A stretch of DNA of 64,000 bases from Bisporella sp. PMI_857 (Eukaryota; Ascomycota; Leotiomycetes; Helotiales; Helotiaceae): positions 1 through 64,000 of the forward strand of contig JAJSPD010000106.1 of the NCBI GenBank assembly GCA_021307315.1, written 5' to 3'. This document shows, piece by piece, positions 1 to 59,174 of this stretch (position 1 is the first letter of the stretch; each line of letters opens with the position of its first letter). The notes under the pieces are model-generated. The model worked only from the letters and a program-made list of their open reading frames with translations, did no database searches and had not been told where the DNA came from. The position numbers and the translations under genes were made by a program.

Positions 1-1354
1 TTAGGTAAATTTTTCTATCATTCATTGATCGTCCCAGTACGCGTTAATTTACTAGAGCAATATATAGACCACTTACATAATTCCCATGCCAAGCAACCAC
101 ATCAAATGGTGAGTGGTTTTGTGTGCTCTGGAAGAACTTGCCTCCAAGCTTATACACAATCTCCCAGGGCTCGTTCTTCACTTCATAATGGGCTGTCGGA
201 TGCAAAAAGTCTCTGGCATTTGCAAGGCCGTTTGCACCTAAAGGACCTAGCTCTGGAAGCTCGAAATTCGCACCCCAAATTTCTAGGATGTAGCCACGCG
301 ATGCGCCACTAGGTAGTGCCACACGAAAACGCTGGCCCTTCTGAATAACGGCAATCTCTCCAGGTTGTACATATAGACGGCCGAATTCGGTCTGGATATC
401 CAAGATGCCTTGTTGAGGAATGATACAATAATCCCGTCTGAGTTCACGAATGCTTTCTGGTTCATGCTCGTATTTGCTGTATAGACGTGGGTTGCGATTC
501 CCTCACGAAGTGTCGGATCTCCAGATCCAGCTAGCGTCTTAAGTCCGCCGATAAAATCTATCTTCTCTTGATCTCCTGGAATATCAAAAGGCAGCCAGGC
601 GAGCTGTGTTGGAGAGACACTAGAATATTGCAGTCAGATTAGGCTGATTAATATGCCATAACGCCTCGAGGAAAGCTAAACTATTGTGCCACTCTGCGCC
701 GTAGAGCTTCTGAGTTCTTTGAGCAACAGCCATCAATAGCCCGGCTATCTAGAAAGTATTGAGCGGAAGTGGCTTTGGGATTAGTATGCAGATAATTGTA
801 AAATTACGCTTACTGAACTCGTGGGTTCCCTAATAAGAAGCTGCTCTCTGTATCGCTATTGTCTGGCAAATCTGTCTAAAAGTCATGGTCAGGATGTCTG
901 CAATATTATCTATAAGCGGGTAAATAACGCACGAATCCTTGGTGCGCAACAGCAGGGCGAATTCTATATAGCCACGCTTTTTTGTTGGAATGTCGGGGTG
1001 CTACAAAAGCAGATGCTGTCATTTGCTCCGTATAAAGTCCGAAGCGGACGCATCTCGGGTTATTTTGCCCCTGTGGGAGTGTTCCTGGTATGGCCTCAGA
1101 CTCGAAACTGCATCGCTATGGTAAGAAAAGGATCAAAGTATTGAAAGCGAAGCAGCATATACATTCCACATACTTGTTGTTAAAACCTGCTTGGTACTAA
1201 AATCTAGAAGTTAATGCTTCCGATTTGGGTCGGCATGAAGAGCACTTAGATATACCTTGTACGGATCATCCTTTCTCAGGCTAAATGATTGAATAGCGCC
1301 ATCCTTTTGTGTTTCTGCCCAGTGGAAAATGTTCTGGTAGTCGGGTGAAGCCAT
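1..1354 (-). CDS. hmgA: Homogentisate 1,2-dioxygenase-like, frameshifted, 3' end beyond the window
   Basis: Opens the ring of homogentisate to maleylacetoacetate in phenylalanine/tyrosine breakdown (family knowledge). Exons read on the minus strand: 1256-1354, 1174-1196, 933-1107, 814-875, 77-619, and probably from 14 outwards. Joined, they follow the family from the N-terminus (SEAIPGTLP, FGLYTEQ, AWLYRI) through PTQLAWLPFDIPG, GDPTLREG, IQTEFGRL and GPLGANGLANARDF to WHGNY, which carries the catalytic histidine; the iron ligands lie past the edge. The start ATG at 1354 has a good context (caccATGg). One defect is visible: near 433-436 the frame must shift by one base, as if a G was lost from a G run, between NSDG and DYCIIPQQG. 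All other joins keep frame, so this is a young mutation or a sequence error. Diverges from the lactonase gene over a shared 613-bp promoter with two ATGTGGGG-type sites. Confidence 0.8.
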
Positions 1355-1513
1355 GGTGAACTGGAGAGGCTGACAATTCTAAGAAATGGATTGAGAGCAC
1401 CAGGAAGAAGTCTGTGTCATTTATTCTGTATGGAGGCTCTATTTAAATCAAAAGAAGCAATCGCTTGTTCGTAATCCACGTGTAAAGGTATGTATGATTA
1501 ACGATGAGTACGC

Positions 1514-1523
1514 ATGTGGGGTA
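1514..1523 (+). promoter_or_regulatory. ATGTGGGGTA site 1 (exact)
   Basis: Exact copy of the shared 10-mer in the divergent promoter between the homogentisate dioxygenase (start 1354, minus) and the lactonase (start 1968, plus). Proposed binding site of the C2H2 regulator at 13276-16326; binding is inferred. Confidence 0.5.
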
Positions 1524-1731
1524 TAGAACCACCATTTTAGTACTCTTCCATTCACCCAACCACATACCATTTTAAACGTGGGTCATTTCGTTGTCAGCAG
1601 CTACCTTGGGAAAGTATGATATTTTATTTCAACAAAGATAGGTGAATTGTTTAGTCAGTGTGCATATGCTTCTTGACTAACAAACACGTGAGAATTACAG
1701 AGTACACATCGAGCGCATTCACGTGCCAAGC

Positions 1732-1745
1732 TTCCCCACATGGGG
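1732..1745. promoter_or_regulatory. ATGTGGGG-type site 2, inside a palindrome
   Basis: Reads TTCCCCACATGGGG. The minus strand gives ATGTGGGGAA (9/10 of the motif), and CCCCACATGGGG is a near palindrome. It lies 222 bp before the lactonase start. Confidence 0.4.
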
Positions 1746-1967
1746 TGGTAGCAATTCTTAAGCATAAGGTAAGTGATAAAAGCTACACGTAGGAGGAGTG
1801 CACCACGGTGTTAAAGGGCTAGGATGATAGATAGTTCTGTTAGGGCAAGTTGGAAGCTTTCGGTTAGCAGCTTATATGTCACAAAAGACACAGTGATTGA
1901 CCGTTGCCTAGTTCATTAGTTTTCTAATCTACTAAGACGATAAACGCTTGCTTAAAAACAAAAAACC

Positions 1968-3132
1968 ATGGATGAGATATCGTGGAGCTCATTGCCTATC
2001 GAGGGTTCTTTCGCAAAGGTCAACTGTCTAGATGGTGGCTCCTTTATAGCCCTCGCCACATACCTACATGCTAGTGCTAGTGATGATGAGACATTTCGAA
2101 TGTACAATTGGGCGTTTCATGTTCATGACATAAAAACCGACCGCCACATATTATGGGATGCAGGCATGAGCTCGGTACGTAAACAAGTTCGCTATACCAT
2201 CACAGTAGCAGTATCTTGAACCCGAGAATCTGATAGCAAATAATGCGAACAGAATCCTGAAGATTACCCGCCGTGGGTTCAGAAGTCCATGGCAAGTGTA
2301 CAAGCAGTAGGTCCTCGCACTTTGCTTGTGGAGCAGTTGGCTCGTCGGGAGGTATCGAGTGATCAGATTGATACGGTGATATTCAGGTAGAAAAAATGAA
2401 TCCTAAAATATGCCTCTCTACTGCAATAATCAGCTGCTGATCATTCCCACCTGCAATACAGCCATGCTCATTGGGATCACTGTCGACCTCTTAAGAGCTC
2501 GTTCCCTCAAGCCCAAATTCTTTTTGGACCAGGGACAAAAGACTTCTGTTCTCCTGGCCATTTTCATGATCCAGATAATGTGCAGTGGGATGGCCGCTTT
2601 TTTGATCCCGATCGAGCGACAGATCCCTTTGAAGAACTAAATGGTCCATGGGTCAAGTTGGGTGCTTTTGAGAAAGCTGTTGATTTCTTTGGAACTGGTT
2701 CCTTCTGGATTATGCAAGCACCAGGGCATATGCCGGGGAATCTTTGCGCTCTTGTTCGTCAAGCACGAGACCAGTGGATACTTTTGGGCAGTGACTGCTG
2801 TCATTCTAGGTTCGGCGAAACTTATTGCATGTTCTTTTGAGCTTGCCGCTAACGCTTATTTAATATAAAGGTCCCTCCTTGATGGGGAGCACAAGATTGC
2901 AGTCTGGGTGCTTCCTGATGGCTCCACAACATCCTTGCATGCTGATATTCCTGCCGCAAAAGACACCATGGCTCGCATTCGCATCATGGAATCCCAACTA
3001 GGATGTCACGTTGCACTAGCGCATGATGCACAGTGGGTCTTGAACGGTACGGACAGTGTATTAATGGGCATGCTTGACGAAAATATGAAAGAAACTGCAA
3101 AGTCGAGCGTTCGTGAAGAAAAGGTCATATAA
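1968..3132 (+). CDS. Metallo-beta-lactamase-fold lactonase (AHL-lactonase-like)
   Basis: Predicted two-metal hydrolase of a lactone or lactam ring. Exons 1968-2174, 2253-2386, 2462-2809 and 2871-3132 give 316 residues in frame; each intron has GT..AG ends. The ligand set is complete: HAHWDH at about residues 115-120, the PGHMPGN histidine near 202, GSDCCH near 224 and AHD near 280. This spacing fits the AttM/AhlD-like fungal branch and not classical beta-lactamases. The start ATG at 1968 (aaaccATGGatg) is the first in frame. The neighbouring dioxygenase and dehydrogenases suggest it opens a cyclic intermediate or a plant lactone/lactam, as MBL1 does in the Fusarium benzoxazolinone cluster; the true substrate is unknown. 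A dead relative lies at 7690-8540. Confidence 0.85.
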
Positions 3133-3578
3133 TTTTCACATATACTACAAATGAAGTACTGGCTTTCTATAACTTAAGGTTAACATCAAACTCCAGTTTT
3201 TAATGAGGTGGATCGATCGGCGGGTTTAGAATATCTTTTATGGCATTAGAAGTTGCTTCAGAGGTTTATCTGAATTGCAAGAATTCTTATATTAGGTCCT
3301 GCTTCACTAATAACGACTCATCTTTTCATTTTCAACTCTGTAACATATTACAAAATATGAATCCAGGCCAGGCTAGCTGTACTATGGTGAAATCAATTAA
3401 GCTTTGGGAACTTCGTAGCAGAATACATTCTTAAGTGACTAAAATCCTGCAGAAACGACGCGCCCTACTAATGGATTTGCTTCCCATTTTGGATAAGAAG
3501 TAACACTAGACCTAAAATGTTGTGGTAATTGGTCTTTCTTATTGTTGATAGTATGTTATATCCAAGTTTAGCCTACAG
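3133..3578. other. Intergenic, 3' flanks of two convergent genes
   Basis: AT-rich DNA between the ends of the lactonase and the reductase. Only short chance reading frames are seen and no feature is recognised. Confidence 0.5.
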
Positions 3579-4589
3579 CTAACTTAGGGTCACGTAACTT
3601 GCAGTGGGTGTATCATCCGACAAATCTCCATATGCAGTCCAATGCTTTCCAGCCTTTTCTTGAGATTCTATTTCATCGGCGATTGCCACAGCTAAGTCGG
3701 CCGCAGAGATTCCATGTAGTCGGCCATCTAGGTTGGTAGGATCTTCAGAATCTCCTTTTAATGCAAGATAGTCAAACCGGATATCATATGCGCCAGTTCT
3801 TTTCCCTGGTCTATAGAGGGCGCTCGGGGAGACATACGTCCAGCGGAAGGACTTGTTACCATCGAAGAACATATAGCTTGTTCTACATGCTGTGACGAAT
3901 TCTAGGGCACGATCGTTGTTGCGAGTCTGCAATTCATAATCTTCGATAACTCCAGCATCTGCCTGCGTAGCTATACCTTTCGCTTTTGCCATCCGTGCAT
4001 TGCGATAGCTACGAAGCTTATCTCCCATGGGACCAAGTCTCTCCTCCATATAAACTGTATGGGCTTCGCTATCGGCGATACCGCGTCTATAAGCGACCCA
4101 CCAATCTTTGTTCTCCAGAACGGAATTGTGAGCTCCCCCAGGCATGTAAAGACTGCAGCAGCCGCCAACCATAACGAAATAATTCACTTTCGCAAGCTTG
4201 CTCGCGAGAATGATTTTCCGAGTGACTTCAAGGAAAGGCACTGCACACAATCGATGAGTCAGCCAAATCATGTTAAGAGGTATTCCTGCCAGGTGTAGCC
4301 GGAAAAGCATACTGTAAATCAAAGCATCAACACCTGCTGCATGAGGTCCGTACTCGTTCACCAGAACATCTAGGCCGCTGAAGATCTGGGCAAGAGATTC
4401 GATGCTCATATCTGCCACATTGCCCACGCGCGGTGTATAACAAGGATGTGAACCTAACTTCTCCGGATACCGTGAGATTCCAATAATAGAATAACCCCTA
4501 TTGATGAGCTCGAGGCACAGGTAAGAGCCACCGAATCCTGCTGGGCCAATTACGCCCACCGTGAGTGATCGCTTGCTAAAGGGAGGCAT
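3579..4589 (-). CDS. NAD(P)-binding reductase of the YwnB/NmrA type (atypical SDR)
   Basis: Rossmann-fold protein of the COG2910-like group, probably an NAD(P)H-dependent reductase or epimerase. The N-terminus carries the nucleotide loop GPAGFGG (about residues 15-21), then GNVADMS and LVNEYGPHAAG. The C-terminal half has WTYVSPSALYRPGKRTGAY, typical of the group. The frame is open throughout, but 4241-4312 (72 nt, GTATGC..GCAG with TGACTCA before the acceptor) is very probably an in-frame intron: removing it joins IY to MPFLEVTRKI as in relatives and leaves 312 residues. It is transcribed away from the dehydrogenase gene at 4975 over a 385-bp shared promoter with one motif copy. The substrate is unknown. 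Confidence 0.75.
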   Translation of the reverse strand: MPPFSKRSLTVGVIGPAGFGGSYLCLELINRGYSIIGISRYPEKLGSHPCYTPRVGNVADMSIESLAQIFSGLDVLVNEYGPHAAGVDALIYSMLFRLHLAGIPLNMIWLTHRLCAVPFLEVTRKIILASKLAKVNYFVMVGGCCSLYMPGGAHNSVLENKDWWVAYRRGIADSEAHTVYMEERLGPMGDKLRSYRNARMAKAKGIATQADAGVIEDYELQTRNNDRALEFVTACRTSYMFFDGNKSFRWTYVSPSALYRPGKRTGAYDIRFDYLALKGDSEDPTNLDGRLHGISAADLAVAIADEIESQEKAGKHWTAYGDLSDDTPTASYVTLS

Positions 4590-4748
4590 AACTGCAAAGC
4601 TTCCGCATATGAGATGGTGGTTTTGTGAATTTTACAAGGCGGAAGTATAGGACTCCTAATTGCTATTTCTGATCCTATTGATTTCCACTGTTAATACCAC
4701 CAAAACTGATGATATTTGATCCCGAGCCATCACAAAGGGTAGCCGTCC

Positions 4749-4758
4749 AACCCCACAT
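4749..4758 (-). promoter_or_regulatory. ATGTGGGG-type site 3
   Basis: Minus strand reads ATGTGGGGTT (9/10 of the shared motif). It sits in the divergent promoter between the YwnB-like gene and the first dehydrogenase. Confidence 0.4.
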
Positions 4759-4974
4759 AGACACTCGGGAGAACAACCAGTCGATTAGCGATGCGGGGAA
4801 ACCACAACACAGAGGATTTCTGAGCTGAACACCAAGGTGGAATTCGTAAATTATTGCTCTTACGCTTTTAAAAAAGAGCTTAGAGCGATTATTTAAAAGT
4901 CTTTAACCCTGGTTTAACTTATATATTCGCACTTTGTTTTCTAGTACTTCCAAAAGGACCTACAAGATATCGAG

Positions 4975-6069
4975 ATGAGCTTGAACTATGGATTTATTGG
5001 TTCGTCTTTGACAATCAAGTTGACAATGAGCTACAATTTTGCTAACCAGGCATTCTCGCGTAGGTCTTGGTGCCATGGGATACGAAATGGCAAAGAATGT
5101 GCGGCAGAAGATTCCCAGGGAATCTACGCTGTTTATCCAGGATGTGAACAAAGATGCTTGTGAGAAATTTGCTGCCGAGTGCATTTCTATAGGTCGCATT
5201 GAGATTGTCGGAAACGCTCGGGAAGTGGCTGACGCAGCGAGTGTTATTATATCGATTGTGCCTGCCGCTAGCCATGTTAAAAGTGTATATCTCGATGCCG
5301 CAACGGGAGTCATTGCTGCCAAGGGGAGCGCTGAGAGATTGATTCTAGAGTGTAGTACAATTGATTGTGAGACTGCTCGAGAGGTAGGAGGGCGGTTGAG
5401 TGGTGCTGGTGCAGGAACATACGTCGACACGCCCGTTTCCGTGAGTCAATCTCAGATATCAGCCAAGCCCCTCCAAAGTCTAAATACATGAATGTAGCTG
5501 AAGATTAGATCTAGGGAGGTGTCCCTGGGGCAGCAGCAGGGACGCTCGCATTTTTAGTCGGCTACCCGGACCCATCTGCTGGTCAACTCACGCCTAAGAT
5601 GAAAGTCCTCAAAGATACGATTCTCTTGATGGGCTCCCCAGAGAAGCTCTTCTTCTGTGGGGGATTAGGATTAGGTCTTGCAGCTAAGATTGCAAACAAT
5701 TACCTTAGTGGCACGAATCTGCTTGCAGCTGCGGAAGCTGCAAACATTGGTATTCGGCTAGGTGTAGATAGTCACCTCCTCTATCGTATTATCCAAAACA
5801 GCACGGGGCAGTCCTTCATGAATGACAAGGTACACCCCGTTCCTGGGGTCGTACCGGCGGCACCAAGCAGTCATGACTATAAGGGTGGGTTTAAGGCTCA
5901 AATGATGGTCAAAGATATGACATTAGGGGTAGAAGCTGCAAAACAGGTTGGGTGCCGTGCGACTATGGGACCAGCAGCGCTAGAAATATATAAAGAAGCC
6001 GCAAAAGATCCGAGATGTATAGATAGAGATGTCTCAGTTATTTGGAGGTTCCTTGATGGGCCGGAGTAA
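4975..6069 (+). CDS. 3-Hydroxyisobutyrate-dehydrogenase-like beta-hydroxyacid dehydrogenase, copy 1
   Basis: NAD(P)-dependent oxidation of a beta-hydroxy acid (family function); soluble. Exons 4975-4999, 5064-5440 and 5515-6069 give 318 residues. The small first exon is needed to rebuild the cofactor loop GFIGLGAMG, which decides the ATG at 4975. Then come the substrate motif DTPVSGGVPGAAAG across the second intron and GLAAKIANNYLSG, with the catalytic lysine in K-x3-N-N order. The C-terminal helical domain ends at FLDGPE. It faces a paralogue end to end, with 216 bp between their stops. In this setting it may reduce or oxidise a ring-cleavage product, not only 3-hydroxyisobutyrate of valine breakdown. 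Confidence 0.85.
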
Positions 6070-6285
6070 AGCTCATTCTCGTACTCGTACACTCCAACTT
6101 GAATGCGTCTCCAACTTCCGCGTACTTATTAGTTTCCTATTATAATCTTGTTTCTCTGCCTTTGAAATCGAAAATTTTAATTTGTTCAAATATCTCTCAC
6201 AATATTAGCCCTCTTACTCCGTATCTAGATGTACCTTGCCTCGTTTCATTAGTAAATGTAGCTCATTTCATTATTTTTGTGACGC

Positions 6286-7318
6286 CTAGCGATTCTCATC
6301 CGAATATCTCTTCAGCCATTCTTCGTCACCTCCCAAGAATCTAAACACAACTCTTGAATCTCGATCCCTGCAATTTTTGTCATTGCTCGCATCTGTATAC
6401 GCTTGCAAACCAGCTCGACCCAGTAACAGCTTTGCATTGACCGCATTTGCTGTATCAACCGCCAAGCCAAAGTCCTTCTTCATCAGTTGGACTTTGAACC
6501 CCCCCTCATAAGCATGACTTGCGGGAGCCTCAGGACAAATGCCTGGAACAGGGTTCCATTTGTCGGAAATAGTACTCTGCGCAGTACTAGTAGAGAAGAT
6601 GCTCGCCAGGATACGCGGGTCCATGCCGGCTTTCATTCCAATATTCATAGCCTCTGCCGTTGCGATGGCTACGAGTCCGGAGCAGTAGTTATTGCAAAGT
6701 TTGGCGGTGAGGCCCATAGAAGGGCCACCGCACACGAATGTTGATGTCCCCATGGTGCCCAAGAGGGTCTTTAGTAACGGCATATTAGGGTCGTTCGAGG
6801 AAGCACCGAGCATAAAAGTCAATGCCGCTTTGTCTGCTCCTAGTGATCCTCCAGAAACCGGCGCATCGTAGAACGAGGTAGATGGATATTTAGTGCTGAG
6901 CTCCTCCCGTACCAAGTTGGATGTTGCGGTATCGATAGTAGAACAGTCGATCAAAATTCTCGATTCTAAATCTGCGGCTAGCAGCCCTAGACCTGGAGTG
7001 AGATAAACACTTCGGACATGTACTCCTTCGGGGACCATGGTAAAAATAATATTCTACACTATCATCAACTGAACTTTCATTCTTCGTATAATGGCTTGAA
7101 GCCATTGTCAATTATTGGAATCCTACCGAATTCTCTGCTACTTCTTTTGAACTTGAGCAGATGTGCACAAACTTGTTTGCTGTCTCCGAGAATTTGTGTA
7201 GTGTCTCTACTGAAACATCGAAAATCCAGAAGCTCGACGTCTCTGGCAGTTTTTCAACCAGATTTTTTGCCATCGGGAAACCCATGACTCCAAGGCCAAT
7301 AAAACCAATTTTGTACAT
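6286..7318 (-). CDS. 3-Hydroxyisobutyrate-dehydrogenase-like beta-hydroxyacid dehydrogenase, copy 2
   Basis: Paralogue of the preceding gene, convergent with it. Exons 7127-7318 and 6286-7053 join in phase 0 to 319 residues. Seen: cofactor loop GFIGLGVMG at residues 5-13, PVSGGSLGADKAAL, GLTAKLCNNYCSG with the catalytic lysine, and NPVPGICPEAPASHAYEGGF. This last block matches NDKVHPVPG..ASSHDYKGGF of copy 1, so the pair share a subfamily. The C-terminal tail is longer (EEWLKRYSDENR). The start ATG at 7318 directly precedes YKIGFIGLG. A motif copy lies about 120 bp upstream at 7438. The two divergent but intact copies suggest different substrates or stereoisomers. Confidence 0.85.
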
Positions 7319-7437
7319 CTTGGGGAAATCGTGTTTGGAAGTCTCACGGAAGCGTACTAGAAAAATTGTTCCACAGATCAGATACAAATTTCGAAGTCTG
7401 GAATACACGTATATATTACAGTCACGGGGGATTTGCA

Positions 7438-7447
7438 AAGTGGGGTA
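7438..7447 (+). promoter_or_regulatory. ATGTGGGG-type site 4
   Basis: Reads AAGTGGGGTA (9/10 of the motif), about 120 bp upstream of the copy 2 dehydrogenase start. Confidence 0.4.
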
Positions 7448-7689
7448 GCAAAATTTTCAAACTCCTAAAAGCTGGTCTGAAAGACAGACCTTGGAAGTCG
7501 ATAAAGCTGAAAGAAGAGAGTTGATTTTCCGACTCTGAAAACGAAGAAGGAACTAGTGTGCAGTATCACTTAATCTAGAAGCGTGGCTATATACACCTAA
7601 ATACGTGCTGCATTTACTAATCAAGGCTAGGAATATTAATTTTTTGTTCCTCTCGTTTCATTCTACATTACGAGCCGTGGTAACTTCTA

Positions 7690-8540
7690 CCTTTTATTAA
7701 TTTGCATAACCATCACTCGAAAGTAGTGCTATTCTGCGGAGAGTATCTGCCGCCTTCTCTTTATCTATATGTAAAAGCGTCTTTCCATGAGCATCTTCCC
7801 AAGTTCCGATCGCCTTCTCCCCGCTTAAAAGACGAACATCGTGGCAGGAGTCACCCAAAAATATCTAGTTTCGAGTACAAAGGAGGTTGATGTGACTTTG
7901 CAAATGCCCTGGGCTATATATTTGAAAATAGATCCGTCCCCATACAGATCCATAGCAAAAGGAAATTGGCCACACGTTTCCTATCTGCTTTGAATTACAA
8001 GCCCATTTGGAAGCAGTAGACTTAAGATTTCATCGTGGTAGAGCGAAGGACCTGGCAGTTCAATGGTCCGGTCCTATAGAAGGATATCCGCTTGGAAGTG
8101 CTGGTGAGAGCCTTTCCACCGAGACCATTCTGTAGAATGTGAGTTGAACCATAGCCCACAATAAATGTTGAACCCATGAAGAATTCTGGGTCTCTATGAT
8201 GGCCATAATGAACATGTCTGAGAACCACGAAATCAATGTCCGTCAATGCTTGGATGCCCTCCTCCGATAATATTGCGACCAAGTCGGGTCCCAGTATGAC
8301 AAGCTGCTGATTCCCGGGATGAAGCCGTTGTTCTATTGTGTAACCATTATTTTGAAACCTAATGCCTAGATCAAACATGAATCGAATTGGTCGCGGCTGC
8401 TCTAACGATGTAGAACCATCTACGTGGATTCCCGGATGTATGGTAACAAATACCAAAGATGGAATAGTTTCCTTGGCTGTTGAATCACAGGGAGTAATAA
8501 AAATCTCTCCGATAAAACTACTAGCGATTGTGGAGACCGA
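7690..8540 (-). pseudogene. Dead metallo-lactonase (second copy)
   Basis: Remnant of a metallo-beta-lactamase-fold hydrolase. The best open part (8022-8456) has FDLGIR, then DIDFVVLRHVHYGHH where relatives have H-x-H-x-D-H; here the metal-binding aspartate is glycine. The frame stops at 8022, but the C-terminal half continues downstream in other frames: LYGDGSIF, PGHLQSH, then an in-frame TAG before IFLGDSCHDVRLLSGEKA, and ADTLRRIALLSSDGY near 7725. At least one frameshift, one stop and a lost metal ligand make it non-functional. It is not a simple copy of the intact lactonase at 1968-3132: motif surroundings differ, so it is an older paralogue. Confidence 0.7.
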
Positions 8541-8886
8541 GACATATTTCTAAGACGCGTCTGGTGGGAATTATGTCCTCAAGCAACCCATAAGATGGCG
8601 TACTTATGGAGGATCTTAAATAGCGGCTCAAAGCTTCTACTGAGCGGAAGGCTTGGGGTAATTCTAGCCCTAACCCAATATACACCCTAATGCTGAAGAA
8701 GTTACGGAACAATAAGTTTCTCGAATTTACGCGGCTTAAGAATCTAACCTTAGACCCAGAACTCTATATTTGCTGCAAAAATACAGCCACTCTTTAATCA
8801 AGATAAATGTATTCGCAAAAGCAAATATCATTACAACTTCCAGTGCTGGTTAAGATGTTTGTGATGCACCTTTTTGATGCCAAGAT

Positions 8887-8896
8887 TACCCCACAT
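8887..8896 (-). promoter_or_regulatory. ATGTGGGGTA site 5 (exact)
   Basis: TACCCCACAT on the plus strand, an exact copy in reverse. It pairs head to head with site 6, 26 bp away, upstream of the dead lactonase. Confidence 0.5.
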
Positions 8897-8922
8897 ACAA
8901 TTTGGGCGGGGGAGAGGGTGAT

Positions 8923-8932
8923 ATGTGGGGTA
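8923..8932 (+). promoter_or_regulatory. ATGTGGGGTA site 6 (exact)
   Basis: Exact copy. With site 5 it forms an inverted pair extended to TATGTGGGGTA on both arms. Confidence 0.5.
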
Positions 8933-9599
8933 GTTATCCTGTTCATCTGGCTTAAGTAAGCTGCACTTATTAGGATTGGTAAATATGACTGACGATAATC
9001 ATAAGAGATCTGGGAAATTTATCGAATACCTACAAATGGTTATCTCTGTGTGATATGAAAGGGTGAGACAGTCTGGTAGAAATTTGATATAAAGAACCTG
9101 GCAATTGGCTTTCACACTACTTATGGAATCAACCCTCTCTGGCCTGCGTCCTCATCCTTGTTGAGCTGTTTTCCCAGGTAGCTTGTTCTCAAAGTCCACA
9201 ATCTCGTGCCGAGTGACGAGAATAAGGTTTGCTATTAAAACTGGGCAGTACTCTTGGCAGCAGTAAATCATAGGCTGATTTGCGGGGAGACTACCCACAT
9301 TTGAGGAACCCCGGCATTAGCATTGGGGTGACTTCTTAATGTCAGGGTGACAAATTTTACAGACATTGGGAGATTGACGAGAATGGTATAGAACGCGTCT
9401 GATATATGCCTGTCGTTCATCGCACAACCATGCTCACAGTGACATTTCGACGCTCTAGTTGCGGACGCAGGAGTCCCAAAACACTTGCCGTAGCAGCACA
9501 ATGTAGATTCAGAGGCGGAGTATTTTGCTGCGGAACCCGAAACTACTATCTGGCACCGAATATCCTATTATTTGCTGAGATATTGTAGTGCACACTTGA

Positions 9600-10095
9600 C
9601 TACATATACCTGGCACACCAAATTAGTGCTGATGGAATCTAAGGACGGTGCCTCCAGCCCTCTTGTCCTCTCTTAGTCAATATCGTAAATTCTCCTTGTT
9701 TGTCTCAGTACTGTTGAGCACCTTACGGATTGGCCCAAAGGTCTTCCAGGTCGCTTGGAATAACGTAAGCACATGGTCCCTTTTGATATGTCACATTTCG
9801 AAACAAAACGTGCTCCTTGAGTTCATCTGCAAGTGCCTGTCCAAGCCCAGTGTTCCAATCTCTAAACGCGACGTTGGATCCATATCCTACTCACTGATAG
9901 GTCTCCGTGCAGACTTGTTAAATATGTCATTCTCCTGATTCTCAAAAGTACTCGGATTGAGTTAGGAATACTTAACATCTTACTATGTGATATGATTGTT
10001 GTTTCACGATCAATTCCCGTGGAGGCGCCTATGATAAGGACAATTTTACCATGCAGCGTATATAGCTCTTGAGTATCTAATAAGTGCGTTGTCAT
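9600..10095 (-). pseudogene. Dead short-chain dehydrogenase/reductase
   Basis: SDR remnant on the minus strand. The N-terminus reads LHGKIVLIIGASTGIDRET, matching the SDR cofactor loop T-G-x3-G-x-G but with the last glycine changed to Asp. Further down, in another frame, FRDWNTGLGQALADEL follows the usual beta-alpha layout, and after a further frame change DHVLTLFQATWKTFG and a degraded N-A-G block are seen. Several frameshifts and stops lie between the pieces. The catalytic Y-x3-K was not found. Probably once part of the surrounding cluster. Confidence 0.6.
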
Positions 10096-10248
10096 GACGA
10101 AAGTTGGAACAAGAACAAAGTCAATTCTATCATGTAGTTTAATGAAGCTTGACTATTTTACTCATGGTTCTTTAATGCAATTCAACATCCCGTTGTCACT
10201 CCCTCACAAGTGTCACAAGATCTTAGCTTATAAGCATTCTAGATACCC

Positions 10249-10258
10249 ATGTGGGGTA
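10249..10258 (+). promoter_or_regulatory. ATGTGGGGTA site 7 (exact)
   Basis: Exact copy 164 bp upstream of the P450 start codon at 10422, and 154 bp upstream of the dead SDR in the other direction. Confidence 0.5.
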
Positions 10259-10421
10259 TTACGTCCTTCAGTGTTTGAGGGATGAAGATGCTCATTGGTA
10301 TTGATCTGAGATGCCCCCCTGTCTCAACTTATCTGATGGTAGCACCGATGTTTGGTATATTATTAGACCACCGAGTTCCCGCTCAGATACCATAATCGAT
10401 ATTAATATTTTACTTCTCAAT

Positions 10422-12134
10422 ATGGCTGCGCACACCGTTTGGAGCTATCTATTAATGTCACACTACAATGTCTCTTTGATATTAGTTGTATTCATCTTAC
10501 CCGCAGCCTTGTATCTATATGTCGTTCCTAATTCCTTGACGGTCCGAAATCTACATCCAGCCCGTGAAAAATCGAGTGCTAACCGTTACAGGACCCCCGA
10601 CGAAAGCACCTCCCTCCTGGGCCTCGAGGACTGCCAATTATTGGTAACCTGCTTGATTTTGCGGATTCTGACTTGGTCAGAGGCAAGGTGATCGGTTGGG
10701 CTCAAAAACATGGAGACATTTTTTATACCAGGCTCGGGGGTAGTGACTACGTTTGGTTATCCTCTCCCAAGGTCGTAAAAGACTTAATGGACAAAAAATC
10801 AGCTGTCTATTCCTCTCGGGCATCTTTGCCATTGGCTCAGGATGTAGCCAGCGCGGGACGACGGCAGCTCTTCATGCAATACGGGCCTGAATGGAGGAAG
10901 ATCCGCAAGGCCAGCCATGCACTATTAAACTTAACATCAGCAGTCAAGTATCAGCCTATACAAGACTTTGAGTCTAAACAACTATTGGTGGATTTCCTAG
11001 ACTCTCCCGAGAATTTTTACGAGCACAATCGCCGCTACTCCGCTTCAGTGATCATGTTGGTCACCTATGGTTATCGGTTGCCAAAATGGGATCATCCACT
11101 AGTTAAAGAGATATATGATGTCCTCGATAATCTGACCGAAATGACGGCTCCTGGTGCGCATGCTGTGGACAGCTTTCCATCACTTGCGTGTCTACCCGAA
11201 ATTTTTCTTGGAAACTGGCGCACGTTTGGGAAGAAGGTCTTTGAACATGATAGCAAAGTGTATACCAAATTATGGAACAATCTGAAGAGGGAAGTTGATC
11301 AAGGTATAGCTAAAGATTGTTTCTGCAAGTCATTCTACTTAGCCAACCCGGAAAAACAAGGAATTGATGACCTTCTGGCCGCATATACCTGCGGCGGCTT
11401 GGTAGAGGCTGGGTCAGAGACCACAAGTACCACTTTAAACAATTTCATTCTCGCCATTCTGCTCTTTCCTCACGCCGCCATAGAGGCACAAGCGGAAATT
11501 GACAGCGTCATCGGCAACGAACGTCTACCAGAGTTTGAGGATGAAATGGATTTACCCTACACTCGAGCGCTGGTGAAAGAGGTACTACGATGGAGGCCTG
11601 TAAATAAGTTTGGCATGATGCATGCTACTTCGGAGGACGATTGGTACAATGGCCACTTTATTCCTAAGGGCACAGTGGCAGTCCTAAACTGGTGGTAAGC
11701 GCATATTTCTGTTCATTTCCCAAACTGAAACTAATATGCGAAGGGCAATACACATGAACCCCGAGATCCACAGCGAACCCGAGAGATTTGAGCCAAAGCG
11801 TTATCTGGATAAACCGTTGCCAGCAGCAGAATACATTAATACGAACGATCCGCATGATCGCGACCATTTCACATACGGGGCTGGCAGACGTGTATGCCCC
11901 GGCGTTCACGTTGCTGAGAAGTCCCTATTTATAAATATTGTGCGAACATTGTGGGGTTTCAATGTAACCGGGCGAAAAGGTGTTGATGGGAGAGAGGAAG
12001 ATATTGACACCAGAATGGTTCGCGGCTTTCTGAGCGTGCCTGTGAAATTTCAATGTGAGCTCGTTCCTAGGTCATCCAAGCACGTCGCTGTGATGCGCGA
12101 GGCATTCAAGCAAGCTGAGAAGAAAGGAATATAG
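10422..12134 (+). CDS. Cytochrome P450 monooxygenase
   Basis: Membrane-anchored haem monooxygenase. Exons 10422-10541, 10592-11694 and 11744-12134 give 537 residues in frame. Seen in order: an N-terminal membrane anchor (about residues 15-33), the proline hinge LPPGPRGLPIIGN, the I-helix oxygen-binding AGSETT (about 312), the K-helix E-x-x-R in KEVLRWRP (about 368), and the haem loop FTYGAGRRVCPG with the cysteine ligand (about 449). The layout resembles the fungal CYP families near O-methylsterigmatocystin-type oxidoreductases, but the family was not settled. Intron 1 has an ordinary GT start (GTCCGA) and a GCTAAC branch site. All catalytic motifs are intact. Exact motif site 7 lies upstream. 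It may hydroxylate the aromatic substrate of the cluster; this is inferred from position only. Confidence 0.9.
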
Positions 12135-12285: not shown

Positions 12286-12597
12286 GATCTGGAAATCCAA
12301 GAGAGATGGTCTGAACATAATGTACCTGCCCCCTTTACGTCTTCCACTGATATTGCGTTCCTCGCCCTAACAATTACTTTTGCCGAAGGATGGTCATCCA
12401 ATGCCTTCGCATTCTTCAACGAAACAAACCATGGGATGGGTCGCTTCAAGGTTAAATCATTACATATTCTCGACATGGCATTTCATTTTCAGGGCTACGA
12501 AGAATTTATAGAACCAGTGCAAAAGCAGGTTACGGAAAGATTTGGTGCTGATGTCGTTCGTTTCATCAATGGGGAACGGCCTTTGAGGCACATTTGA
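12286..12597 (+). pseudogene. Orphan 103-codon open exon, no start, function unknown
   Basis: A clean open frame preceded directly by an acceptor-like TTGTTAG and ended by TGA. It contains FAFFNETNHGMGRFKVKS and PVQKQVTERFGADVVRF, which look like real protein, but no start codon or upstream exon was found in the 150 bp back to the P450 stop. Most likely the last exon of a gene whose front part was lost. I do not recognise the family. Confidence 0.35.
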
Positions 12598-13275
12598 GTA
12601 TAATGGCCTTTCGGCCGATCGAACCGAGGGCTTTGTAGTGGATGCCATTGACACCAATTGCTAGGAGACGGGACGGCATCTTCCAGTTTGCTGCTGACAC
12701 TAGGCTAGATGTCATTTCGGTCTTTTAGGATGTTCCTTGCAGGGCTATAAAATTTTATAATTGTTGAACACTTATCTTTGATCGCTGAGCCCATGATTTG
12801 AGAGAAGTGTGCTCATAAGCTTGAAGTAATATTAACATTTGAGCATGTGCCTTTGCAAAAAGCTCTGAAGAGATTGGACTTTCAAAGGTTTAAGGCTTGC
12901 TTCAAGGTATCAATCATGATTGAAAGGGGTAATGTTAATCTTTTACACTATTTCTCTTTAGGTTTGGTTAACCTTTGAATCTATACAATATCCGCCTAAG
13001 GGCCTGAGGGTACAGTACGTAAGCTCTGACTACCGACCCACCACCGCCACCGCCGCCCCCCATGATCAAGATCCATGACCCTGACCAACTAAGCTACCCC
13101 GCAGATGCCCTGTAACCACGAACCTCAGATTCGGGATTTCTCCCTCTCCCTCTTCAATGCTGCACCACATACGATAACAACGTGAACGACTACACCCAAC
13201 TGTTTACCAGCAGAAAGGCCCAATAAGCTTCAAGCCGAGCAACTGCAGAAAGTAGACATACATGTATTGCGCAGC
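12598..13275. other. Intergenic, promoter region of the C2H2 regulator
   Basis: No gene seen. A short CCG/CCA-rich tract lies at about 13037-13062. No copy of the ATGTGGGGTA motif was seen here, so there is no visible sign of autoregulation. Confidence 0.5.
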
Positions 13276-16200
13276 ATGGTAACCATTACGGAGGCTTTAC
13301 CCATCATTGACATTGATGGCCCTGAGAGCATCCACCACAGGCCCAAGCAACGGCAGCCACGACAAGTATATAAGTGCTCATTCTGTGGTCGATTATTCAA
13401 GAGAAGCGAGCATTGTGTGCGCCATGAGAGAGGCCGTAAGCGCCACTTGTCCTCAATAGTGAGGAGTACGGTAGATGACTGACTGGCGCCAAAGATACCA
13501 ATACAAAACCATTTCCTTGCGAATTCTGTGGGAGGCACTATGCTCGAAAGTACCACATCCGCAGCACTCCAGAAACGGGCCAATTGCTAATAGTTAACCT
13601 TCAGAGACTTAGTCACACGTCATGTACAATCTTTCCATCCAAACGGCAACGCCGAGAGACTACATAATTCAGCCGTGAGACATAACTCTTCCTCTTCCTC
13701 AGGCTCGCCACAGGAGGAAGGTTCTACGGCCGGGCAATCCCCTTCACATGCTGTGACAAATGATCCGTCCACGATCAATGTTGCTATTCCTCAGCTCTCT
13801 GACAACGAAAATTCCACTGAACAAAACTCCCTCAGCCCAAGACCATCACAATTGGAAACGACTACAAATAACCATCCAAGTTTAGGTATTGTTATTATGC
13901 AGCTCCCTATAGACTCAACACCCCCAAGATATACTAACGATAATCTAGCATCACCAGCAAGCATAACATTCCATGAGACCCTCCCACCCTATTCACCTCA
14001 TGATGCGGCTCTAAACAACTATATTCCTCATGATTCGACCCATTCGCAGGACGATGAACTCAGCAACAGGTCAGCTCAGCGGAATCGCGAGAATGTGTCC
14101 GTCCAAGATAATTGCGAGGAGGGTTTATCACTGGTGAACGATATGGCCCAAATTACAGCCCAATACGATAATCATTGGCAGCACCTGGAAGGCCAAGAAA
14201 CAGGCTTTGGTGCGTCTGAGGATATAGACTTTACTAGAGTCTTACCATCTTCTCACGTTTACGGGGATGGCCAATCTCAAGATATTGATTTCTTCGCTCT
14301 GCTCGCGGGTTCTACGCCGAATATTAATCTTGACTTTTCGGCACCAAGTAGACAATTCGATGTGGCATCCCATCCAATCATGGAAGATCATACATCGGAA
14401 GACTTTTCGCAAACTGAACCAGGAGCCGGACAACAGGAAAACTTCGAATCTACTATAGTGACTGGGATTGAGCGTCCAAGTTCTGCTAAGTCAGATCAAT
14501 CACTGATGAATGATAGCATGTATGCCAAGCTTCGAGAGGATGTGCGAACACGCCTCGTATCGGGAGGTACATTTACATTACCGAGTGCGGCAAAACTGCG
14601 GCAATTTATGAAGTGCTATCTTTCTTGTTTCCATGACCACTTTCCAATTCTTCATTGGCCGTCCATGGAAGCAAACCCACTGTATACTCCTTTAATCCTC
14701 GCCATATCCGCCATTGGGGCTTTATATAAACTGAAACGAACAGTTGCGAAAGATCTCTGGGAATTTGCTGAGTCGATGGTTGAGCCGGTATGCCCATTTC
14801 AAGGCTCATTTCCTACTTCAGCAACTCCTCTAAACTATTGCAGGACTGCCGACGGAAGAATCTTGTGGAGCAAACACCAATACAAGCTCTACAAGCCAAA
14901 TTGCTTTTGACGATTTTTGCAGTTTTTGGCGGTCATGTTCAAGATGTTGTTGCCTCAACGCAAAATTTGGGATTTTGGGCGGCGGTCAGTCTTTGTCAAC
15001 TTCTGATAGAACATCCTTCTGACACGAACTGACGCTAACATGCTGCTAAGGAATATCGCTTACGCAGAGCAAGTTTAGCTAGGCAAGGTGTAGAGCACAA
15101 ACGCTTATCCTGGTCCGAATGGACATCCAGAGAAACCGTAAAGAGGTATATAAAAGTCTTCACTGCATATGAAGTAATCTAACAACCGAAGGCTCCTCTG
15201 TGGGATATTTGTGTTGGGAAGTCTATTAACAGTAACTTACGACACTACACCGTTCTTGACTGTTACACAGGATCTCAATATCGAAATTCCGGAGCGAGAG
15301 ATAAAGTGGAAGGCTCAAACCGCCGAAGATTGGGAACACGTAGCGTTTACGCATCATAACAATCAATTACCTACAGTCCGTGATGTATTAGCTCACCTCA
15401 TCTTCCACCGGTGCCCATCATCCTACCGCACGTTAGCCAATGATCGGACAATGTGGTCTGGGTTTGCTATAACAGTGGTTATGCATGCTGTAAATATTCA
15501 TATGTGGCACATAATGCAGTGCACACAGTCATTTACAGGGTTTCCTATTGAGCCATCTACGATTGGTCACGAAATGGTTTTGCAGATTGAGCAGAGCCTT
15601 GCCCGATGCTACACATTGCTGACTACACATCAACCAGATGTGGAAACTCCTGAACCTGGTGAAGGACCACAACTATTCAACTGCCAGGCTTTACTTCGCA
15701 GTGCTTATGTTAGAATATTTACGGGCGCTGGCAGCTTTGATCGCTTGATGCTTCTAAGCGAAGATGATGATCAAATTGCATACAGCATACAGAATTTTGT
15801 ACATTCGCAACAACCGAGAAGCCCATTCTTGACCAAAGCTGTCAGCAAGGCTTACGTGGGACTTCTGACGCCAATCACAGCAGGTTATCTTTTGGTGAGG
15901 CGGACAGCAGCTTTGACTTGGAGTGTGGAGCATGCTATCGCCGCTTGGGACTGTGGTAAGCGGGTTTTCCTTCAAAAAATTTGCCATTTAGTAAAAAGCT
16001 AGAACTTGACTGTAAAAGTGGCTAACTGAGATGTTTGAGTAGCGCTTTTCGTTACTAAATGGATTCATGGAATCGAGACTAACCAGAGCACGCCTCGTGG
16101 TGCGCCTGATATTGCGGAAGCAGAAAATATTGCAAAATTCCGAGAGCTTCTATTGGATGCCGAGAGTGACTATGAAAGAACTGAGTCTCTAGCAGCTGAT

Positions 16201-16326
16201 GTTGCGCATGTTTGGGCGGACTTTCTTGATGACACTTGGGTCTGGGGCATCACGCCGAGAATGGGACATTTATTGAGGTTGCTTTCAAAGGCATATTTAA
16301 AAGACCGTAATATCTCTACTTTATGA
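13276..16326 (+). CDS. C2H2 zinc-finger transcription factor with fungal_trans domain
   Basis: Nuclear DNA-binding regulator. Exons 13276-13435, 13495-13549, 13605-14787, 14844-14984, 15051-15145, 15192-15955 and 16043-16326 give 893 residues; total length and phases agree. The fingers are split by introns 1 and 2. Finger 1 is YKCSFCGRLFKRSEHCVRH with H-x3-H, recognition helix RSEHCVR. Finger 2 is PCEFCGRHYARKDLVTRH with H-x4-H, helix RKDLVTR. They are linked by GHTNTKPF. A Ser/Thr/Asn-rich middle follows, then from about residue 404 the fungal-specific domain (LRQFMKCYLSCFHDHFPILHWP region). The two-finger layout is like Adr1. By the finger code the pair should bind GNGGGG, the core of the repeated promoter motif. 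The donor of intron 4 (GTCAGT) is the least certain. Confidence 0.85.
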
Positions 16327-16517
16327 TATGGAGGCTTAGTTATATAGTGCTGGTATAAGTCCTTTGGCATTGCATTGTGTGGCGAAATAAAGCATATCGA
16401 GGATTATCCAAACATTGTAAAATAAAGCGTTACTAGGCATAATAAGAAAACACACCTGACAATATTCAAAGTAACACTGCAGGGTTTTGAACGCGTCAAC
16501 TTGCATCTCTGTGCCAT

Positions 16518-17264
16518 GTATGGCATGATATAACGACCAACGTGCAACAACGCAAAATAGGGTAATAAAAGATAATAATTGATCAAATTGCAAATCGCAA
16601 ATCGAAATCATTCAATTAATAACTTAGTGCTTTTGACTTTCCTGGCCCTCGACGTTCTTGGCGCCCTCGACTTTCTTGGCTCTCGATGTTCCTGGCGCTC
16701 TCGACTTTTTTGGCTCTCGACATTCCTGGCGCTCTCGACTTTCTTCGCCTTCGGCGTTCCTGGCTCTCGACGTTCCTGGCGCCCCCGACTTTTAAAATAA
16801 AGCTGTATTCGTTTTTTATTGTAAAAATGAAAGAAAAATACAAACACAAATACTTGTAAATACTTTAAAAAAAGCAAATATACCAAGACAATCCTTTGCG
16901 TAGCAAATTTTTTCACTTTTTTTGTTTTTTTAAATGCAAACAAAACTAGCTTTAAAAAATCGACAGCGCCGGAAAAATCGAAAGCGCCAGGAATATCGAG
17001 ACCCAAGAAAGTCGAAAGCGCCAGGAATGTCGAGAGCTAGAAACGTCGAGAGCCGGGAACGTCGAGAGCCAGAAAAGTCGAAAGCGCCAGGAACGTCGAG
17101 AGCCAAGAAAGTCGAGGGCGCCAAGAAAGTCGAGGGCCAGGAAAGTCAAAAGCACTAAGTTATTAATTGAATGATTTCGATTTGCGATTTGCAATTTGAT
17201 CAATTATCATATTTTATTACCCTATTTTGCGTTGTTGCACGTTGGTCGTTATGTCATGCCATAC
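16518..17264. mobile_element. Fold-back element with long inverted arms built of 17-bp units
   Basis: The arms start at GTATGGCATGA and run inwards as near-identical inverted copies for at least about 190 bp, through GACCAACGTGCAACAACG and TCATTCAATTAATAACTTAG. They then become arrays of a unit like CCTGGCGCTCTCGAC on the left (16640-16795) and its reverse complement on the right (16965-17155). The AT-rich centre is about 170 bp and has no gene. Translations in any frame give only low-complexity Arg/Ser/Glu repeats, so it is non-coding. No clear target duplication was seen. Confidence 0.75.
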
Positions 17265-18780
17265 CTGTTACCAATGAACCCTTTGAGATAAGCGACGATA
17301 GCCAAACGTTAAATTCATTTCCTTAAAAATGTAATCGGCAATTCAGGCACTACTACAGAGTATTGAGGAAACGTACTTTCTCCTTGGACCAAGTTGCTGT
17401 CACCTTATAATATGGAGGTTAGCACTGGCTTTCAAATAGCGCAAGTATATTGCGACGATTTCCGACTACGTGTCTCCAACGGTGATCAAGCTCTAGCAGG
17501 CTTCTTTACTCAAGATGCCAGTGAGGCAAGGCTTACTTAGAAGTGGGAGATACGGAACACACGTGAAATGCAGTCCCCCATGCTAAATTCGACTGATTTT
17601 ATAAGATTTGTGTCTTTTGAAGAGCTGGAAGCAGTTGAAGAATGGTCCCAAAGAACGTTGATGCTCGGTAATCCAACCTATGGCTATGGCTACTTGTGAA
17701 TTAAGCAAATGAGAATAGTGATATACGCAGTAGCTTTGATGCCTTGAGATTAAATGCGGAGCAAAACTGATACCATATTTCAAGCGGTGCGGTTAACCCA
17801 ATAGTCACAAATTACTTAACGTGTAAGACGAAATTGAATTGTGAGAGTATGAGAACTACTAGCTAGTCCAGCACAGAATCACTTGTTTCGAGATGGGTTG
17901 TCACCTTTCCACTTTGCGTAGATTGTATAGCCTGCCCTTCGTCTCTCCACTTTTCAAGCACCGAGCTGTATGACCGCCTCGGGGGAAAAAAAAATATCAA
18001 ATAGTTTGAATAGGCTCGGCGCTGACGGGTTGTCGCCCTTACATGTCACGCGAAACACCACAGGATTGATTGCGCTGAACTACTTCTCTCCTGCGGTGCT
18101 GACTCTGAGGTTATATCAGTATCTCTCGAAAATAATGGTCTGACACCATTGAAATTCTTCCCTGCCTGCAAGGGCGAGGAACAATGGAGCTCGGAGATAG
18201 CGCCACAGGTGTATGAAGTATTTTGAGTTTGATTGTCTCGTGAAAAAGCACCAAATTGAGACCATCACCATTTCCACCCCAGGAGGCGATAGCAGTGGGT
18301 AAATCGACTGCTACTTCGGTTAGTGAACTAAGTCTAGACCACCTACAGTTTCATTGTGTTATAGAAGATAGCCAGCTGAATGGTTTTGAGGTCGAAGGTT
18401 AGAATAGATCTATTGAACTCTACCAACTCACGACACTGCTCTTTGTTTCCACCATCATTGTACCGGCCTAATGAGATTTTAGGGCGCCATTGCTGTGGTA
18501 ACTATAGGAAGTACCTTATCTTATTTGAAACTAATGGTGTCTAGAAAATTTCGCGAGCCATAGGAAATGGCCTTCAGAGTAGAACACCTGATCAAAGCAT
18601 GACTATACCAGACATCTTCTGTCGTTGGCGATCATTTACCTCCGGTTCATCCGCTAGCCCTCGAGACTCGTTGCTAAAGCATCAAAAACCATTGCATAAC
18701 ACGGCCGGAGAAGCTGGTTAGTGGGAGCCTACAGCGATTGCGGTATGTAATCATTCAGCATTTTCTTTACTATTATACTC
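17265..18780. other. Intergenic, nothing recognised
   Basis: No frame with family motifs on either strand. A short stretch at 17411-17540 reads like protein for about 40 codons but was not identified. Confidence 0.4.
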
Positions 18781-58872: not shown

Positions 58873-59174
58873 GCCGGCATATTTCACTTAGTTCTTTTAC
58901 ATTTTTAATACATAATAATAAGTTGTCGTTGTTGTGGCCAAGGAGAGTAGGAGGGCAGCGCACAAGTGGAAGGCGCCTGTATTTTTATAGATTGTCTATA
59001 AGCTTAGATTTTCTATGTCACCGCGTTTTATGCTAGCAGTTAGGGCACAACGCTAGTATCTGTATATAACCCTCTATCCCTTCAGCTCACGCTAAGGGCT
59101 GTACCATACCAGAGGCCTATCCTCTGGCGTCCTTTCTTCGGTTTCGGAGCTCAAGGGGCCATGTAGCACTTGCT

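Follow-up and report, generated by a model that had tools for sequence, protein, structure and literature searches.

The DNA analysed here (the window) comprises positions 1-64000 of contig C9 of Bisporella sp. PMI_857, whose genome assembly holds 55.6 Mb (55,640,548 bases) in 284 contigs. The left part of the window carries a cluster of enzyme genes and gene relics (44-12134), followed by the gene of a C2H2 zinc-finger regulator with a Fungal_trans domain (13276-16326, + strand). A 10-bp word, ATGTGGGGTA, recurs in the intergenic DNA of this cluster, and judged from the sequence it is probably the site at which the regulator would activate the cluster and a set of satellite loci on other contigs.

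The leftmost member of the cluster is a relic of a homogentisate 1,2-dioxygenase gene (HGD, with an HgmA_N domain; 44-1354, - strand), which switches frame where the open reading frames (ORFs) 283-633 and 44-502 overlap. It is followed by MBL-A (1968-3132, + strand), a metallo-beta-lactamase-fold hydrolase assigned by homology. Many MBL-A homologues carry PF00753; a Pfam search with the MBL-A piece (gaps as X) gave no match, and an NCBIfam model of AttM-type lactonase matched with an E-value of 9.4e-10 yet at 38 bits, far below its cut-off of 390. Next come an NAD(P)-binding or epimerase-like gene of 336 amino acids (3579-4589, - strand; Pfam scores just below the curated cut-offs) and two genes for 3-hydroxyisobutyrate-dehydrogenase-like proteins, HIBADH-1 (4975-6069, + strand; NAD_binding_2 and NAD_binding_11) and HIBADH-2 (6286-7318, - strand; assigned by Pfam). 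The MBL-B relic (7712-8549, - strand) survives as separate pieces, one with a stop, and matches the MBL-B of contig C124 at 48% over 149 amino acids. A short-chain-dehydrogenase-like (SDR) relic (9865-10152, - strand) matches C124:468213-468365 at 35% over 51 amino acids, and the last enzyme gene encodes a cytochrome P450 (10422-12134, + strand; database model 526 amino acids).

The regulator gene is intact. Its seven exons (13276-13435, 13495-13549, 13605-14787, 14844-14984, 15051-15145, 15192-15955 and 16043-16326) join without a stop into a spliced model of 893 amino acids (872 in the database model), with two C2H2 fingers near the start of the protein (residues about 28-90) and then Fungal_trans (PF04082; E 2.3e-9, 37.2 bits against a cut-off of 23). 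Both fingers are complete by pattern, at a zf-C2H2 score of 20.0, which is below the Pfam cut-off of 25.2. Splicing yields the finger sequences CSFCGRLFKRSEHCVRHERGH and CEFCGRHYARKDLVTRHVQSFH, bearing out the helices RSEHCVR (finger 1) and RKDLVTR (finger 2) that the first-pass annotation had read from the DNA. By the usual zinc-finger code, RSEHCVR reads GGG and RKDLVTR reads G-N-G, jointly GNGGGG, and the earlier proposal that the word fits the local regulator is thus supported as a good match.

A scan of both strands of the window found four exact and three one-mismatch copies of ATGTGGGGTA between 1514 and 10258, each intergenic, spread over five intergenic stretches of the cluster. The exact copy at 1514-1523 (+ strand) lies in a promoter common to the HGD relic (160 bp away) and MBL-A (445 bp away), and the one-mismatch site ATGTGGGGAA at 1732-1741 (- strand) is 227 bp from the MBL-A start. 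The divergent promoter between the NAD(P)-binding gene and HIBADH-1 has the one-mismatch site ATGTGGGGTT at 4749-4758 (- strand), 160 bp and 217 bp from the two starts, and a weaker possible site with two mismatches, ATGCGGGGAA, at 4791-4800 (+ strand). The one-mismatch site AAGTGGGGTA at 7438-7447 (+ strand) is 120 bp ahead of HIBADH-2. Two exact copies form a divergent pair upstream of the MBL-B relic, at 8887-8896 (- strand) and 8923-8932 (+ strand), separated by 26 bp, and the fourth exact copy (10249-10258, + strand) is 164 bp from the P450 start and also upstream of the opposite-strand SDR relic. The sites are thus 120-227 bp upstream of the gene starts at four intact-gene promoters and 160-164 bp at the HGD relic and the P450. 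With a possible autoregulatory site of two mismatches, CTGCGGGGTA at 13095-13104 (- strand), 172 bp from the regulator start, every cluster promoter tested has the word in exact, one-mismatch or (at the regulator's own gene) two-mismatch form. The first-pass annotation had placed seven copies, all before a cluster gene or relic, and had seen no exact copy in the other 54 kb; the scan reproduced all seven positions and strands exactly, as well as both statements. Its list lacked an eighth copy with at most one mismatch, AAGTGGGGTA at 21827-21836 (- strand), which lies outside the cluster within a 236-amino-acid ORF without a Pfam match.

The eight matches with at most one mismatch in 64 kb compare with 3.09 (standard deviation 1.43) in shuffled sequences, and none of 100 shuffles reached eight. 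Two checks that the first-pass annotation had proposed, a genome-wide count and a promoter enrichment test, were both run. The genome has 92 exact copies, or 0.0165 per 10 kb, close to the chance rate of about 0.02 that had been estimated; a reversed control word has 63. Clusters of four exact copies in 8,745 bp are expected genome-wide about 4.6e-5 times. When one mismatch is allowed, the word is hardly commoner than the control (2547 against 2346 matches, a weak excess). Because the word had been chosen after the fact, we ran a de novo 10-mer search over six promoter stretches with 40 dinucleotide shuffles, in which ATGTGGGGTA was the top exact 10-mer (four copies) and the best 10-mer of the shuffles had two copies in 40 of 40.

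The enrichment test showed that the core GTGGGG is concentrated close to gene starts. Within 400 bp of 15 gene starts it was enriched 10.5-fold (13 copies in 5,428 bp against 19 in 83,072 bp); in the window alone the enrichment was 8.7-fold (p 6.5e-4), and in the C124 stretch L031 alone it was 22-fold (three of four copies, p 0.006). These counts used five gene starts that were 1-3 bases off, and the site-to-start distances quoted here are from checked starts. The bases beyond the core also go with the cluster: of 20 GTGGGG cores in cluster DNA, 14 carry the full word with at most one mismatch, compared with 7 of the 51 cores elsewhere (p 8.7e-6), and TA follows the core at 12 of 20 against 6 of 51. 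In this comparison the control set includes stretches fetched for an exact copy, a bias against the result; C100, chosen in part because of its copies, is in the cluster set and biases toward the result. Taken together, the results support the word as a real promoter word of a regulon.

To follow the word beyond the window, we took as a hold-out 15 loci of the top-ranked (by E-value) homologues of cluster proteins in the same genome, hand-picked after the searches; the set omits lower-ranked places, for example a P450 on C98, an MBL gene on C43 and HIBADH genes on C260 and C213, and its loci on C241 and C263 appear to duplicate a single place. An exact copy lies within 2 kb at three of the 15 (C100, C124 and C270), where 0.13 copies were expected in all (P 2.6e-4 for at least three loci). 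Outside the window, exact pairs within 10 kb occur only on C100, C124 and C266, and C100 and C124 are homologue loci. The C266 pair was rejected as a cluster locus: one copy is inside an ORF, and the ORFs listed there are unlike cluster genes by eye, with no search run. On C100, the genes encode an FAD monooxygenase, a P450, a PcaD-like alpha/beta hydrolase, a PcaC-like carboxymuconolactone decarboxylase (CMD) and an iron alcohol dehydrogenase (matches to the PcaD and PcaC models fall below the curated cut-offs, while the Pfam domains clear theirs), with sites 336 bp before the FAD monooxygenase exon edge, 132 bp before the P450 and 192 bp before the alpha/beta hydrolase. Sites on C124 are 109 bp ahead of MBL-B and 229 and 482 bp ahead of an alpha/beta hydrolase, and on C270 a site is 214 bp ahead of a P450. 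A further C124 stretch, 466001-472000, taken for its HGD homologue, has four copies when one mismatch is allowed, compared with an expected 0.27 (P 1.9e-4). Three are one-mismatch copies that precede, by 240-356 bp, a short-chain dehydrogenase related to the window's SDR relic; the fourth is further on.

Altogether, a site with no more than one mismatch lies within 600 bp of 12 of 15 gene starts (six of seven in the window, three of four on C100, two of three on C124 and the one on C270), and at 11 of these 12, measured from checked start codons, one site is 109-229 bp upstream. The twelfth is the C100 FAD monooxygenase, measured from an exon edge. The three other starts are those of the regulator, the C100 CMD (two mismatches, 216 bp) and the C124 P450 (no site). 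Of 69 P450 places, which are hand-merged search rows with distant P450s included, nine have one of the 88 exact copies outside the window within 5 kb, and three have one of the 63 copies of the control word, a weak excess that is not main evidence. The stretches on C33 were scanned for the word only, and for about 80 of the exact copies in other parts of the genome the neighbourhood was read at most in part. The regulon that the first-pass annotation had called local is therefore supported as a regulon and is not only local, since exact or near copies also precede paralogous catabolic genes on C100, C124 and C270.

The residues of the regulator that would contact the DNA are conserved in other fungi. 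The homologues listed, from the part of the candidates that was scored, fill 27 rows; without the regulator itself and two animal proteins, 24 fungal homologues remain, from genera which we take to fall in Leotiomycetes, Sordariomycetes, Eurotiomycetes and Dothideomycetes. All 15 homologues whose finger 1 is complete have R-x-E-H-C-x-R there, and all 18 whose finger 2 is complete have R-K-D-L-x-x-R. Six of the 24 are without either finger by pattern; among them, P0021 begins in a finger-2-like part, PRDLLVR.

Some of the same homologues are linked to the cluster enzymes. Among the matches listed (the best 120 of 137 for MBL-A and the best 120 of 890 for the P450), eight of the 24 regulator homologues are tied to cluster enzymes through fused gene models or a shared contig. 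In Colletotrichum, the gene model P0018 joins the regulator to an MBL-A-like protein, and P0015 and P0016 join it to MBL-B-like and HIBADH proteins. A P450 homologue is on a contig of equal size in Phlyctema, Mollisia, one Drepanopeziza form and Aspergillus nanangensis, and an MBL-A homologue in the other Drepanopeziza form; locus numbers differ by 4 to 13 in Drepanopeziza and A. nanangensis, and a shared multi-Mb contig, as in Phlyctema, is weak evidence alone. The enzymes are also fused with one another, MBL-A with an NAD(P)-binding protein in a Fusarium fujikuroi model and HIBADH with a P450 in two models, which indicates that the cluster enzymes travel together.

Several observations limit the case for the regulator at 13276-16326 acting through ATGTGGGGTA, or weigh against it. 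In the de novo search, the count with at most one mismatch gave seven sites for ATGTGGGGTA, and 2 of 40 shuffles reached at least seven; the shifted word TGTGGGGTAG scored eight by the same count and was found in six of six promoter stretches, the sixth, the regulator's own promoter, containing CTGCGGGGTAG in the site alignment. The one-mismatch count alone is thus not decisive. The C124 P450 promoter has just GTGTGGGGGT and that of the C100 CMD just AAGAGGGGTA, and C100 was fetched partly for its two copies, though it is also the locus of the second-best P450 homologue. No exact copy was found within 5 kb of several close paralogues (P450s on C252, C46 and C35, HGD on C216, HIBADH on C112, and the regulator paralogues), and none of the 30 places listed in the regulator homology search lies on C100 or C124. 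Regulator and P450 homologues are listed on contigs of unequal length in Pseudogymnoascus VKM F-103 and Exophiala xenobiotica, as are regulator and MBL-A homologues in Rasamsonia, Glonium and A. nanangensis; for the remaining homologues the listings showed no gene context. The unequal contigs make a conserved pairing of regulator and cluster less probable and are not firm, as the contig given may be that of a different member of the protein cluster. Finally, three other factors in the genome keep the same base-contacting residues (R/EH/R and R/DL/R), with helices RSEHLSR/RNDLLRR on C46, RSEHRSR/RRDLLLR at the end of C252 and RLEHLKR/RRDLLLR near 148 kb on C252, and the C46 locus has no exact copy of the word, only the variants CTGTGGGGTA and ATGTGGGGCG.

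The conserved residues, and the absence of the satellites C100 and C124 from those 30 places, would fit a regulon that has this word as its operator but is read mainly by a paralogous C2H2/Fungal_trans factor, for instance the one on C46, or by several factors that share the word. This is unlikely: the C46 locus has weaker forms of the word only, whereas the window has four exact copies around its own regulator, and it is the homologues of the window's regulator that are linked to the same enzymes. A quite unlikely reading takes the sites for those of CreA, the Mig1-type carbon catabolite repressor, since GTGGGG is one form of 5'-SYGGRG-3' and catabolic clusters may be expected CreA targets. 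CreA has two C2H2 fingers, as here, and the GTGGGG core would suit it; it prefers adjacent sites (PMC7985698), which the 8887/8923 pair would fit, the one close exact pair beside weaker pairs in some promoters. However, in the same 400-bp promoters in which GTGGGG is enriched 10.5-fold, neither the other SYGGGG words (0.94-fold) nor SYGGAG (0.73-fold) exceed their density outside, and the consensus does not ask for the TA that cluster cores keep. CreA would not single out one of eight words plus TA, which disfavours this reading, as do the rarity of the word in the genome and the presence of a C2H2/Fungal_trans protein beside these enzymes in other genera. To our knowledge, CreA itself is without a Fungal_trans domain. 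It is very improbable that the copies arose by chance or remain from the duplication of genes or promoters. The cluster does hold paralogous and relic genes, short words do recur by chance, and the one-mismatch count was matched by two shuffles, but the exact count beats all 40 shuffles and the genome rate, and the promoters belong to unrelated gene families. The 15-base flanks of 17 word-aligned sites have a mean identity of 25%, which equals chance, and 53% in the best pair, so the copies do not stem from a single duplicated promoter; the alignment, which includes two two-mismatch picks (13095 and L034:5575) and omits 4791 and the L045 copies, illustrates this and is no test. Duplication or chance as the source is thus contradicted by the exact-copy de novo search, the flanks and the genome rate.

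The proposed recognition of ATGTGGGGTA by the window's regulator resembles, by analogy, a known system. HxnR of A. nidulans, the regulator of nicotinate catabolism, is a pathway-specific C2H2 and PF04082 protein whose genes are spread over three clusters, according to the parts of the papers available (PMC5746545, PMC8478523, PMC9304392). The HxnR sites in member promoters, 5'GHGGGG, are predicted and described there as experimentally not determined (PMC8478523, PMC5746545). Pathway regulators of the C2H2 class are known from few cases in fungi, and one paper discusses HxnR under the heading 'An unusual specific transcription factor' (PMC5746545). No row among the regulator homologues is named HxnR. 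By its published description, the sole basis of the comparison, both regulators have two C2H2 fingers near the N-terminus and PF04082, both are within their own catabolic cluster, and both systems have genes over several clusters, divergent promoters and a putative site before the regulator's own gene. GTGGGG occurs in five of the six promoter stretches of the window, and the sixth, that of the regulator, has GCGGGG, also a GHGGGG form. The systems differ in their enzymes, the hxn genes including a xanthine-dehydrogenase-type nicotinate hydroxylase and the present genes a P450, MBL-fold hydrolases, HIBADH and HGD; no molybdenum hydroxylase or old yellow enzyme is among the families found at 44-12134 (HGD, NAD(P)-binding, two HIBADH, P450, and MBL by homology). 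They also differ in the word: the present one is 10 bp long, includes a conserved TA and was read from the DNA itself instead of being predicted from the fingers. Our best reading is that the regulator would work like HxnR, as a pathway-specific factor that recognises GTGGGG(TA) both in the home cluster and at the satellites. The regulon is accordingly not of a new kind, as 'undescribed' in the first-pass annotation had implied; its operator word and the match to the regulator stand. No paper on this cluster or word was found among the literature matches listed, most subscription journals being outside the search.

Two other systems are less close. The finger pair matches the solved ADR1 fingers (PDB 2adr) with an E-value of 1.9e-15, and many animal zinc-finger proteins score better. 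The second helix of Adr1 is of the R-x-D-L-x-x-R type and its site is TTGGRG; such sites were not enriched here, with one TTGGGG and one TTGGAG in the 5,428 bp, below the outside density. The FDB1 cluster of Fusarium verticillioides for benzoxazolinone breakdown likewise has a metallo-beta-lactamase gene in a catabolic cluster, together with an NmrA-like gene, an FAD-binding protein and a fungal-specific transcription factor, and differs by its amidases and transporter; compared by description, the FDB1 rows listed in the available part of the source have no P450, HIBADH or HGD (PMC10512309).

Some further features of these loci are recorded here. The C46 stretch at 558001-570000 (L034 and L035) is a sister cluster with its own C2H2/Fungal_trans paralogue, an MBL-B type hydrolase, a semialdehyde-type aldehyde dehydrogenase, HIBADH and a protein that by eye resembles carboxymuconolactone decarboxylase; its variant sites perhaps follow the altered finger 2 (RNDLLRR). 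Two of the three HGD loci in the genome look broken, that of the window, which keeps the exact site 160 bp upstream, and C124:470436-471269 (L045), which has nine internal stops, introns not excluded; the C216 locus is open. The opposed exact pair at 8887-8932 ahead of the MBL-B relic looks like an operator outliving its gene. The ORF remnant at 12286-12594, between the P450 and the regulator, is perhaps one more relic and matches a C124 ORF (L045:1228-1476) at 34% over 83 amino acids, in a neighbourhood that is esterase-like by eye. Right after the regulator gene, a foldback element (16515-17267) has 220-nt arms that are 95% complementary, with 313 nt between them and direct repeats spaced 34 nt inside. 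Farther right, the stretches 38755-43001 and 55030-61484 hold a copia-type retroelement (gag and RVT_2 ORFs) and two ORFs for reverse transcriptase/RNase H of the LINE (long interspersed nuclear element) kind, and a DDE transposase ORF (43646-44812) and an RGS/DEP protein (50611-52026) are also present.

From the word and the fingers we infer that finger 2 (RKDLVTR) would read GTG and finger 1 (RSEHCVR) GGG, giving GTGGGG, and that the conserved TA after the core would need one further contact; the two-finger domain is predicted to bind GTGGGGTA DNA. The regulator is predicted to be an inducer-responsive activator, probably self-regulated. Its targets would lie on its own contig as well as on C100, C124 and C270, with the sites it acts from some 110-230 bp ahead of the start codons. 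The pathway under its control is predicted to be one of aromatic or lactone catabolism, with a P450, lactonase-like hydrolases and dehydrogenases. More tentatively, with the chances slightly short of even, a single C2H2/Fungal_trans activator, its two-finger code unchanged, may command a dispersed family of aromatic- or lactone-breakdown clusters through a strict 10-bp operator. The pairing would then be old in filamentous ascomycetes (Leotiomycetes, Sordariomycetes and Eurotiomycetes), the operator would predict further members, and broken genes that keep intact operators would mark decaying pathways. A promoter word, its likely reader, the home cluster and satellite loci were found together here, with contact residues unchanged over several ascomycete classes, and the word gives a handle on which of the scattered P450, lactonase-like and hydrolase genes may share one pathway.

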